Source: Candidatus Woesearchaeota archaeon
Lineage (GTDB): Archaea > Nanobdellota > Nanobdellia > Woesearchaeales > ARS49
Direction of reading: 5' to 3'
DNA: 35,360 bases
NCBI GenBank assembly: GCA_014729195.1
Contig: WJKI01000057.1
Location: forward strand, 1 to 35,360
In this document: in pieces, positions 7,833 through 12,144 of the stretch
Numbering within the stretch: the first letter of the stretch is position 1
Layout of the letters: every line of letters starts with the position of its first letter
Notes under the pieces: model-generated
The model's input: only the letters and a program-made list of their open reading frames with translations
Told to the model about the DNA's origin: nothing
Databases searched by the model: none
Program-made: the position numbers and the translations under genes

Positions 7833-8375
7833 ATGAAAAAAATAGATTTTACGCAAATCAAGAAGTTACCTCCTGAAGAAAAAATCAAGGTACTTGAAAG
7901 AGTAGAGGGAGAATTAAAAACATTAATTGAAAAACGCAAAAAAGAAATTGAAGAGAAAAATCTAGAAATAGAAAATGCAGAAGAATTATTACAAGAAGCA
8001 CAAAACGAAGCAAAAGTTTTAGAAGAAATCAAGACACCGGAAATTAAAAAAGTAGACATCGGAAAATTATTCCATCCTGAAGAAAAAGATCTGGAAGGAA
8101 TAGCAGCAACAGCACCCTCTGAAGCAGAAAAAAAAGCACAAATTGAAGAGCTAAGCAAGCAACCAGTGCAGGAATTATATAACACTGTTGTTGGAATCAA
8201 AAGCGAAATAGATAAAACAGGAATAGAAACTTTATATCAACAGGAGAAAATAGAGCAGATAAATGAAGCCCTTTATGAGAAGAAAAAAGCAGTAGAGAAC
8301 AAACAATATAATCCCACCAAAAAAGCGCGGCACTTACTGACTGCTGCAGAGCAAATGATGGAAAATTATATGTAG
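7833..8375 (+). CDS. hypothetical coiled-coil protein
   Basis: 180-aa ORF with Lys/Glu heptad-like N-terminal half. Confidence 0.75.
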   Translation: MKKIDFTQIKKLPPEEKIKVLERVEGELKTLIEKRKKEIEEKNLEIENAEELLQEAQNEAKVLEEIKTPEIKKVDIGKLFHPEEKDLEGIAATAPSEAEKKAQIEELSKQPVQELYNTVVGIKSEIDKTGIETLYQQEKIEQINEALYEKKKAVENKQYNPTKKARHLLTAAEQMMENYM

Positions 8376-8378
8376 AAA

Positions 8379-9452
8379 ATGATTAAAAAAATAATAGTGA
8401 TGACAATTCTCTTATTTTTAATAGGCTGTGTTATCGAACCCCGAGAAGAAATTCAAAAAGAAAATGTAAATGATACGCAAATTCAAGCTGGCGAAGTTAT
8501 AGTTAAGGAAAGTGCTGTTGAAGAAAAATCAGTAGACATTCGGCGATGTAATGACGGAACATTGTATAATGAATGCTCTGTACAAAAACCATACTATTGT
8601 TTAGACGGCAATATTATCAAAAAAGCTTCTGTCTGTGGATGCCCCAAGAATCAAATCGCGTCTTATGAAAATTGTGTGTCTGCATTTGAAATAACGCCTT
8701 TTGAACAAACATTTACTTACACTCTTAACGGCAGAGAAAACTCAATTTCATTAACAGTCTACAAAGAACTAAACGATTTTTTAAGCGCAAAACCAAGAAA
8801 ATATTACTGCAATCCGGAATGCCCTTCTTCGCGCGAAATAGAAATGAAATACATAGATAATACAGAACAAAAACCATATATGAAAAAATTAGTTTCTAAG
8901 ATCAAATCCAAAACCTCAGATAAAAAAGAACAAGCAAGAATAGCAATCGCTCTGGTTCAAAGAATACCATATGCAGACACTGAACGCAGAAATAACGCAT
9001 TAACCGGAAGATATCCATACGAAGTTCTTTTTGATAACCGCGGTGTTTGCGGAGAAAAATCCTTATTATTAGCATTCTTATTACGCGAAATAGGATACGG
9101 AGTTTCCCTATTCCATTATCCCGAAGAAAAACACATGACTGTTGGATTAAAATGTCCCTTAGAATATTCTTATCAGGAATCAGGCTATTGTTTCATAGAA
9201 ACAGTAGAGCCAATAATACCAACATATATTCCTTCAAAATATGTAGATATCGGTTCTCTTGATTCTGACCCGGAAATAATACAAGTATCAGAAGGAAAAA
9301 CATTTGACATATCTGAAGAATATTCTGACGCCCGTGAACTGAAACGAATCAATTCAATCGGATTAGTGTTACAGCCAAAAGACTATGCAATCTGGAGAGA
9401 CCTGATGAAAAAATACGGAATATATGTTAGAGGAAGATTGTTTTTTAGGTAG
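8379..9452 (+). CDS. transglutaminase-like (Cys-His) putative lipoprotein
   Basis: Lipobox-like LFLIGC; NRGVCGEKSLLLAFLLREIGY...HMTVGL transglutaminase-core pattern. Confidence 0.75.
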   Translation: MIKKIIVMTILLFLIGCVIEPREEIQKENVNDTQIQAGEVIVKESAVEEKSVDIRRCNDGTLYNECSVQKPYYCLDGNIIKKASVCGCPKNQIASYENCVSAFEITPFEQTFTYTLNGRENSISLTVYKELNDFLSAKPRKYYCNPECPSSREIEMKYIDNTEQKPYMKKLVSKIKSKTSDKKEQARIAIALVQRIPYADTERRNNALTGRYPYEVLFDNRGVCGEKSLLLAFLLREIGYGVSLFHYPEEKHMTVGLKCPLEYSYQESGYCFIETVEPIIPTYIPSKYVDIGSLDSDPEIIQVSEGKTFDISEEYSDARELKRINSIGLVLQPKDYAIWRDLMKKYGIYVRGRLFFR

Positions 9453-9528
9453 CTCTATCAGAAATTCTACTGTTAAACACGGAAATAATCTGATTTTTCT
9501 TGGGAAAGACATATTAAACATTAATACG

Positions 9529-9551
9529 TAATCTAATATCATAATAGATTA
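9529..9551. promoter_or_regulatory. inverted repeat TAATCTA-N9-TAGATTA, candidate operator upstream of the DUF4258/YgiT-type module
   Basis: 7-bp perfect inverted repeat ~55 nt upstream of the module start, next to repeated TTTAACATTAA-like motifs. Confidence 0.35.
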
Positions 9552-9607
9552 ACATATAGTTTAACATTAAATTTAACCTAAAGTTTTATATACTCGCGGT
9601 GTTTACA

Positions 9608-9875
9608 ATGAAAAAGAAGCAGATAAATATCGAAACATATGCCTTTTTCAGAATGCTTGAAAGAGGAATGCAATACGAACTCGATTATTATGAAACAAAA
9701 GAACGCGCATATGAGGCCGTAAGAACCGGCAAACGTAACAAAAAAACGCAAATCAAGAATATTCAAAACATATTATCGGTATTTTAATGATAATCTGTCT
9801 TTTTATGTTATCTGCCAGAAAAACAAAAACCAGATGTTAATCAAAACCGTCATAATAGAAAAAGGTAAAAAATGA
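9608..9875 (+). pseudogene. DUF4258-like small protein, split by a one-base frameshift in the A-run near 9765-9768
   Basis: Frame 1: MKKKQINIETYAFFRMLERGMQYELDYYETKERAYEAVRTGKRNKKTQIKNIQ; continues in another frame as TYYRYFNDNLSFYVICQKNKNQMLIKTVIIEKGKK* and ends with an ATGA overlap onto the next gene. Confidence 0.65.
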
Positions 9876-10192
9876 AAAAGAAATGCATCAATTGCAACAT
9901 CCCGATGAAAAAAACCTCTGTAAAATATAAAGGAATAAAATTTGAAGCAATGCAATGCCCCAAATGCAAACAAAAAATCTTTACAGAGGACTTGGCAATG
10001 AAAGCAATAAACAAAATAGAATCAGAAAGACTAAAATCAGAATATATAAAACACCCAATAAAAATAGGCCACAGCTGGGGAATAACATTTCCAAAAGAAA
10101 TCACAGACGTGTTTGAACTAAACAAAGGAAACACAAAACTAAAAATACATCCAGATGTTACAAGAGGAAAAATAGAAATTTCATTAAAATAA
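9872..10192 (+). CDS. YgiT-type (MqsA-like) zinc-finger, putative antitoxin/regulator
   Basis: CINC...CPKC knuckles plus C-terminal AbrB-like segment (HSWGITFPKEITDVFELNKGN). Confidence 0.7.
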   Translation: MKKKCINCNIPMKKTSVKYKGIKFEAMQCPKCKQKIFTEDLAMKAINKIESERLKSEYIKHPIKIGHSWGITFPKEITDVFELNKGNTKLKIHPDVTRGKIEISLK

Positions 10193-10329
10193 GCTTTTTA
10201 AACCTCTAAACATTATTACAAAACAAGGCTTTCTACCCAAAAATCATACACCGAAAAATATAATTTTTCAAGATTAAAAGTTTCTGACGAAACTTTTAAA
10301 TACTTAATATACTAAAAAGTATACTGAAA

Positions 10330-12144
10330 ATGGTAGAATTTCAAAGTGACTATTACCATCCAATGGACCGCGAGTATGAAGTAGGCATAGCTTCAGGAGT
10401 AGGAAAACAAAACAAAATAGAAGAACCAATAGTAACAATAGGAGAACTAGGACAAACAGTGCCGGAAAAAGATCCTGCAGGAAAATTCAAAAACATGGTC
10501 CAGGGAGTACAGGCAGCAATGAGAGCCGGCTCAAAAAACATCCAATTAGTAATGTCAGAATCCCATACAAGTCCGATGGGCGGAAGACCAAAAGCATATG
10601 GCAAAGAAGTAAGACAAGCAATGAAAGATGCTTTCCTGGCAAATGATGCACGATTAATCGGAATAGAAATGCCAACCAGATCTATGAACAACTTATCAGG
10701 ATTTGACCAGCAACAAGGAGTATTCAGTGAAACAGCAAGAAAAAAATCACTAGACGAAGTAAAAGAAGCAATACGATTTGCATCAGACGTAGGACAAGGA
10801 GGAGGAGTAGACATAGTTGCATTTGAATACAACAGACCAATATCTGATATTGCAAATGAAAAACAAGGATTCATGCCAGAAGAAGAGGAAGTAGTACAAA
10901 TAGTTGACAAAGAAACAGGACAAATACAAGCATTCAGAAAATCACAAGTAAGAATACAACTGCCTTATGATCCAAAAACAGGAAAAGAAATAACCGATAT
11001 TCAAGACGGATTGCCGGTATTAAAAGAATGGAGATGGGAAGATTTTGAAAAACTGGCAGAAAGAAAAGGTCCGGACTATGACCCTGGAAAAGAATTCTTA
11101 AAAATGCAATACGACGGTCAAATAAGGATTGCACAAAGCTGGGCAAGAAATTATGCAGGAAGATTAGACAAATTGAAAGAAGCAAAAGATGAACTAGAAC
11201 AAATTCCCCATAGAACTCCTACACAAGAAAGTGAATTACACAATATAAAAATGCAAATACAATCTTCAAGAGATATGGCATTTGGACAACAACAACAAGC
11301 AGCAGAATACGAAGAAAGAAAAAAAAGAATGATTCCTGTATCAGATTATGCTCAAAAGAAATCAATGATGTCATATGCAGAATTAGGAGTTGCAGCAATG
11401 GATGAATCAAACAATAATCCAAAAATAAGACATCCAATACACGTCGGACCTGAAATAGGATGGCCGCATGCATACGGCGGACATCCAGAAGAATTCATAG
11501 AACTAATACGGGGCGCAAGAAAAGAAATGATAAACTTGCTTACAAAACCAGAAATATTAGACCCAAAAACCGGCGGAATAAAACGAAATCCTTTTTATAG
11601 AGGACTAAACCCAAAACAAGCTCAAAAAGAAGCAAATGAACACATAAGAGGAATGTTTGACACAGGACACTTAGGAATGTGGCTGGAACATTTTAAACCT
11701 CATCTGCCTTACAGAGAAAGAGTAAAACAATTCAACAATTGGTTCATGGAACAAGTTGATAAAATCTCCAAAGCAGATGTAGTAGGAGGAATACAGGCGG
11801 TAGATTCAGCAGGGGCAGCACACGGACACCTACCTGCAGGACAAGGAATATTTCCAGTAGTAGAAGCAGTAAAAAAACTAAAAAAAGAAGGATTTAAAGG
11901 ATATATTGTATCAGAAGGACATGAAGAAGAACAATTTGGAGAAGGAAGAATATTATTAAACACCTGGAAAGCATTTAATGCACCAATAGAATCAAGATAT
12001 GGGCCAGGAGTTCACGGCGGAAGACAATTCAATGATGTTCATCAAGGATATTTTGGAAGACAAAGACCTCCTCAACAAATGTTTGGGTCATACACCCCTC
12101 CATTTGGAGAATACAAGCCATGGTCTGAAATACCCTTTGAATAA
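10330..12144 (+). CDS. conserved hypothetical protein, possible xylose-isomerase-like TIM barrel
   Basis: 604-aa ORF; FDTGHLGMWLEHF, AHGHLPAGQGIFPVVEAVKKLKKEGFKGYIVSEGHEEE resemble TIM-barrel metal-site strands. Confidence 0.65.
   Translation: MVEFQSDYYHPMDREYEVGIASGVGKQNKIEEPIVTIGELGQTVPEKDPAGKFKNMVQGVQAAMRAGSKNIQLVMSESHTSPMGGRPKAYGKEVRQAMKDAFLANDARLIGIEMPTRSMNNLSGFDQQQGVFSETARKKSLDEVKEAIRFASDVGQGGGVDIVAFEYNRPISDIANEKQGFMPEEEEVVQIVDKETGQIQAFRKSQVRIQLPYDPKTGKEITDIQDGLPVLKEWRWEDFEKLAERKGPDYDPGKEFLKMQYDGQIRIAQSWARNYAGRLDKLKEAKDELEQIPHRTPTQESELHNIKMQIQSSRDMAFGQQQQAAEYEERKKRMIPVSDYAQKKSMMSYAELGVAAMDESNNNPKIRHPIHVGPEIGWPHAYGGHPEEFIELIRGARKEMINLLTKPEILDPKTGGIKRNPFYRGLNPKQAQKEANEHIRGMFDTGHLGMWLEHFKPHLPYRERVKQFNNWFMEQVDKISKADVVGGIQAVDSAGAAHGHLPAGQGIFPVVEAVKKLKKEGFKGYIVSEGHEEEQFGEGRILLNTWKAFNAPIESRYGPGVHGGRQFNDVHQGYFGRQRPPQQMFGSYTPPFGEYKPWSEIPFE

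Follow-up and report, generated by a model that had tools for sequence, protein, structure and literature searches.

A frameshifted, probably inactivated BrnT/RelE-fold putative toxin gene with an intact zinc-finger antitoxin partner in a woesearchaeal genome

Among the described toxin-antitoxin (TA) systems closest to the locus analyzed here is BrnT/BrnA of Brucella abortus (PF04365, PDB 3u97), in which BrnA is a ribbon-helix-helix protein (PMC11980606). An essential Lys-His pair has been described for BrnT/RelS toxins (PMC13284704). DUF4258 (PF14076) is listed among the toxin families with a BECR fold and no known activity, and fusions of DUF4258 with MqsA have been reported (PMC11980606). 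Antitoxins that stand without a toxin are well documented and mostly described as remnants, although some have been proposed to act as anti-addiction or regulatory proteins (PMC7354431). Here we describe a related gene pair in a 35,360-nt stretch of DNA from a Candidatus Woesearchaeota archaeon (contig WJKI01000057.1; the whole stretch is referred to as the window), in which the toxin gene is divided between two reading frames directly upstream of an intact antitoxin gene (Table 1).

Table 1. Features of the gene pair and its surroundings (positions are those of the window)
Feature	Position	Strand	Remarks
Accessory lipoprotein-like gene	8379..9452	+	Weak transglutaminase match
12-bp tandem repeat array, ~4 copies, unit like AGTTTAACnnAA	9540..9586	+	Tandem Repeats Finder: period 12, 3.8 copies
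TATA-box-like promoter core AAGTTTTATATA	9581..9592	+	Overlaps last repeat; archaeal consensus only
5' toxin part, frame 0	9608..9787	+	59 aa from ATG; premature stop; aligns with residues 1-46 of the uninterrupted G002 toxin
Codon 11, Tyr (TAT) replacing His	9638..9640	+	His in every intact homologue
Lesion interval, net 2-base loss	9731..9753	+	Best gap positions; contains A7 run 9740-9746
3' toxin part, shifted frame	9747..9875	+	68% identity to G002 toxin residues 46-89; own separate match in genome search
Intact antitoxin	9872..10192	+	Zinc finger with CxxC...CxxC at the N-terminus (DUF7479/MqsA-like); putative MazE/AbrB-like DNA-binding domain at the C-terminus

The initial annotation of this DNA had described a 62-aa ORF that stops early and a toxin stop codon coupled to the antitoxin start as ATGA. 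Both are present: the 62-codon ORF spans 9599-9787 when an alternative GTG start is used, and the overlap lies at 9872-9875, with the antitoxin ATG at 9872 and the toxin TGA at 9873-9875. The shifted frame encodes the peptide TYYRYFNDNLSFYVICQKNKNQMLIKTVIIEKGKK. Both frames align collinearly to one 89-aa protein from a genome of the same genus (G002; E 9e-25), and because they do so in order the second frame is a real coding sequence and not a chance one. Identity to the G002 toxin is 59% over residues 1-46 and 68% over residues 46-89, in agreement with the claim that coding is preserved in the second frame. Homologues of the fused protein are likewise found in relatives, as a single ORF of 89-94 aa in G002 and ~15 other loci of the phylum. 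A one-ORF toxin with the same partner directly 3' is seen in G002, G025, G469, G109, G455, G454, G213 and G466, with further such loci in G307, G133, G352, G474 (two copies), G502 and G480. Since G002, G025 and the ~15 loci keep the toxin uninterrupted, the single frame is the ancestral state.

The segment between two well-aligned blocks measures 88 nt in the window and a constant 90 nt in seven out of seven closest relatives, indicating a net loss of two bases in the window. While this bears out the recent indel and the frameshift suggested at the outset, it differs from the proposed event, a one-base slip through an extra A in the AAAA run at 9765-9768. A 2-base gap gives up to 369 nucleotide matches when placed at ~9731-9753 as opposed to 333-345 at 9762-9770 (339-345 at 9763-9768), which rules out the AAAA run as the slip site. 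At the protein level the fit of the shift point is ambiguous over ~9727-9763 and lower at 9766. The deletion site includes the A7 run but need not be that run, as gaps at 9733-9736 score equally well.

Loss of bases in an A-rich stretch could also have occurred in the contig alone, with an intact toxin in the living genome. The A7 run within the lesion interval is consistent with such an assembly or sequencing error, as is the conservation of the shifted half (68% to G002, dN/dS ~0.22), which is what one would expect of an intact gene. A homopolymer miscount, however, changes the length by one base, and the two-base difference from the seven relatives argues against a simple miscount, with the caveat that a genuine loss of one codon combined with a surplus A would produce an equal net change. 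In a survey of G002 proteins against this genome (~0.8 Mb of each), 4 out of 549 orthologues were frameshifted (5 out of 546 in the reverse direction), and the toxin was the only candidate in this genome to fall on a run of 6 or more. Frameshifts are therefore rare genome-wide, with none at other long runs, and the assembly has no general tendency toward homopolymer errors. The independent change of His to Tyr at codon 11 (H11Y) is not a homopolymer error either. We thus consider the sequencing error suggested by the initial annotation unlikely, though it is the strongest competitor of a real mutation, and the deletion is presumably present in the living cell.

Programmed +1 frameshifting, also suggested initially, or transcriptional slippage on A7 might instead yield some full-length toxin from the two frames. 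Both frames are open over 9723-9784 and an A7 run can in principle support slippage, but every intact homologue reads the toxin in a single frame, which leaves no conserved slip site, and the gene lacks the conserved frameshift by which a programmed +1 frameshift gene would be recognized. Furthermore, an RNA structure signal is absent downstream (z = -0.27), A7 runs occur in the window at chance frequency (95 vs 96.5 in shuffles), and the invariant His is lost as well. Recoding at this site is therefore very improbable.

To describe what the intact gene may encode, we rely on the G002 relative. Its AlphaFold2 model (pLDDT 91.3) has a strand-helix-helix-three strands arrangement, corresponding to the predicted beta-alpha-alpha-beta-beta-beta fold of RelE/BrnT (BECR) toxins. 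The best PDB match of the model is BrnT (3u97; Foldseek probability 1.00), at a moderate similarity (TM 0.57-0.64, E 2e-3), and the top matches, BrnT, RelE, ParE and YafQ, have probabilities of 0.97-1.00 with TM again moderate at ~0.5-0.6. In sequence searches, neither DUF4258 nor BrnT gave a Pfam match for the window pieces or for the G002 and G025 toxins; none of 14 toxin family members reached the DUF4258 model cut-off (one member was at E 0.0013), none of the 14 matched BrnT, and no NCBIfam model fits the family. Profile-profile comparison matched the family to DUF4258 proteins of relatives (probability 88%, E 3e-6), and the His-Ala of the N-terminal DUF4258 signature (HA..R) aligns with a His-Ala found in all intact homologues, which the window copy replaces with Tyr-Ala. 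Overall, we predict a BrnT/RelE fold for the intact protein, a putative toxin with a distant relationship to DUF4258. Distant relatives with the pattern H.F.R...L...IEETVR.GK...YFGKEN.TY.VIV...VKTAW.KKGR in G471, G333, G486 and G128 (L183-L186) represent another BrnT/DUF4258-like family of the same order.

The antitoxin is intact in the window, as are its orthologues in G002 (82% identity) and G025 (71%). The window protein scores above the Pfam DUF7479 cut-off, and Cys 5, 8, 29 and 32, which make up the two N-terminal CxxC pairs, are invariant in 15 aligned homologues. With the MqsA/YgiT-type models TIGR03830/TIGR03831 it reaches 13 bits against a cut-off of 61.8; weak matches to these models, below the cut-off, occur in 10 out of 15 antitoxin members, and 8 out of 15 have a weak match to TIGR02609. 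Foldseek matches of the antitoxin model include the MqsA N-terminal domain, AbrB-fold proteins and MazE, the MazE and AbrB-fold matches having a probability of 0.94 at best and E values above 0.3; the C-terminal half may tentatively be read as a MazE/AbrB-like DNA-binding domain. Thus, a toxin-like gene with a zinc-finger partner, as originally described, is supported, and the labels DUF4258-like and YgiT-type hold as distant relationships, although the curated cut-offs are reached for neither family.

Upstream of the toxin gene the last copy of the 12-bp repeat runs into the TATA box, and the array and TATA box presumably represent operator and promoter. The three-copy arrangement TTTAAC-N6-TTTAAC-N6-TTTTATA has a single occurrence in 804 kb of this genome and a single one in 800 kb of G002, in both cases upstream of the toxin-antitoxin pair, and an array like the window's precedes most homologues. 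Across 353 genomes of the order, the core GTTTAACNNAAAGTTTTATA is matched exactly at seven sites, six of which lie directly before this toxin gene. The seventh (G275:C4:17349-17368, minus strand) lies before an AbrB-type antitoxin gene with a PIN-domain toxin gene downstream, which suggests an operator common to another AbrB-antitoxin operon. It would be natural for the AbrB-like antitoxin to repress its own operon by binding the 12-bp repeat array at the TATA box. Most likely, the intact system would work like MqsRA/BrnTA-type modules, the RelE/BrnT-fold toxin probably being an RNase or translation inhibitor that the zinc-finger/AbrB antitoxin would neutralize.

In the window, the toxin carries a second lesion in addition to the deletion. 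Among the alignment columns that are otherwise invariant across 16 homologues, this copy departs only at H11Y. Pairwise dN/dS between the window and G002 is 0.16 for the antitoxin and 0.34 for the two toxin pieces, and pairwise dN hints at accelerated toxin evolution, but in relative-rate tests the toxin pieces do not evolve significantly faster (p 0.24-1.0). We therefore do not take acceleration as proof of decay, the case for which rests on the deletion and one substitution. The same combination, a difference in pairwise dN/dS with no significant acceleration in the relative-rate tests, indicates that the break is recent. A genome search found no intact second copy of the toxin in the same genome. 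An intact pair on contig C51 (L088 5603-6135), consisting of a 66-aa DUF4258-like toxin and a zinc-finger/AbrB-like antitoxin, has a close copy in another genome of the genus (G001, L011) and belongs to a different DUF4258-like family; it is not a second copy of the window system.

We consider it likely that the locus represents a woesearchaeal TA family member in which the toxin has recently been inactivated, by the 2-base deletion and the loss of the invariant His, and in which the antitoxin and operator survive. This agrees with the earlier suggestion of a dead toxin beside a persisting zinc-finger partner. The full-length product in this genome would then come from the antitoxin only, and the solitary antitoxin may be a passing stage of decay or may be kept as a repressor or anti-addiction protein. 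A second decayed toxin is found in G474 (G474:C149:6460-6591; L190 1501-1632), where the C-terminal part is left, with a TAG upstream and an intact antitoxin directly 3'; the same genome also carries two intact copies. The G474 remnant is at a more advanced stage of decay and is independent of the window lesion; at least two cases in which a toxin was lost and its antitoxin survived have therefore probably occurred.

One variant refines this explanation without fully competing with it: the remaining parts may have been retained deliberately, either with the short first protein and the antitoxin forming a new regulatory pair or with the antitoxin domesticated to serve as a transcription factor or in anti-addiction. 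Such retention would fit the intact antitoxin and operator, the additional antitoxin kept after toxin decay in G474, and the roles proposed for orphan antitoxins (PMC7354431). The lesion looks recent, however, leaving little time for selection of a new role, and of the predicted fold the frame-0 product would retain just strand 1 and the two helices, without the remaining sheet and with its last residues out of frame. We therefore regard retention for a new role as quite unlikely. It is similarly doubtful that the antitoxin outlived its toxin because it was recruited to act alone at the 12-bp repeat operator, whether as a repressor or as an anti-addiction protein; if true, such recruitment would represent archaeal toxin loss with antitoxin domestication, with an independent parallel in the woesearchaeal G474.

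Consistent with a mobile toxin-antitoxin module, the family is patchy and its position changes. In G002, the counterparts of the genes at 7833-8375 and 10330-12144 are separated by 106 bp, so the gene pair and the lipoprotein-like gene are extra in this genome; ~1.95 kb of the window (8379-10329) is absent between the same flanks in G002. The G002 copy of the pair sits elsewhere, beside another DUF4258/zinc-finger pair and nucleotidyltransferase genes. The island on G002 contig C16 (L035 388-4500) comprises the toxin-antitoxin pair, the divergent DUF4258-like/zinc-finger pair and several nucleotidyltransferase/HEPN-like genes. Family members occur in 11 out of 371 genomes drawn from the phylum and in 22 out of 353 from the order, where a few distant and partial matches contribute to the figure. 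Phages, plasmids and viral contigs yielded no relatives.

Decay of toxin genes is common and unsurprising, and the window case is one of ordinary decay, in a TA family that has no description in curated libraries. The by-product of value is the family itself, a patchy Woesearchaeota TA family without a curated model, made up of a BrnT/DUF4258-like toxin, a zinc-finger/AbrB-like antitoxin and a recognizable 12-bp repeat operator. It provides a clean test set for studying how TA modules move and decay, and how solitary antitoxins are left behind, in archaea with very small genomes.

Like BrnT/BrnA, the family has the toxin gene first and the antitoxin gene second, and BrnT, with its RelE superfamily RNase fold, is the best structural match of the intact relative. 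In contrast to the ribbon-helix-helix BrnA, the partner in the window combines a zinc finger with a putative AbrB-like domain. The position of the BrnT Lys-His pair is occupied by Glu-Arg in the window family, as judged by sequence pattern and not by structural superposition. The invariant His of the family is therefore probably a different residue from that of BrnT, and we do not claim that the His lost in the window is the BrnT catalytic His. With DUF4258 toxins that have MqsA/YgiT-type antitoxins, the family shares the HA..R..eR signature, but its helical part is longer and its C-terminus, YF.DN...KTVII..GRE, is distinct. The pair also resembles MqsR/MqsA (YgiU/YgiT) in its toxin-first order and in the zinc finger at the antitoxin N-terminus, whereas MqsA continues with a helix-turn-helix and the C-terminal half of the window antitoxin appears to be MazE/AbrB-like.
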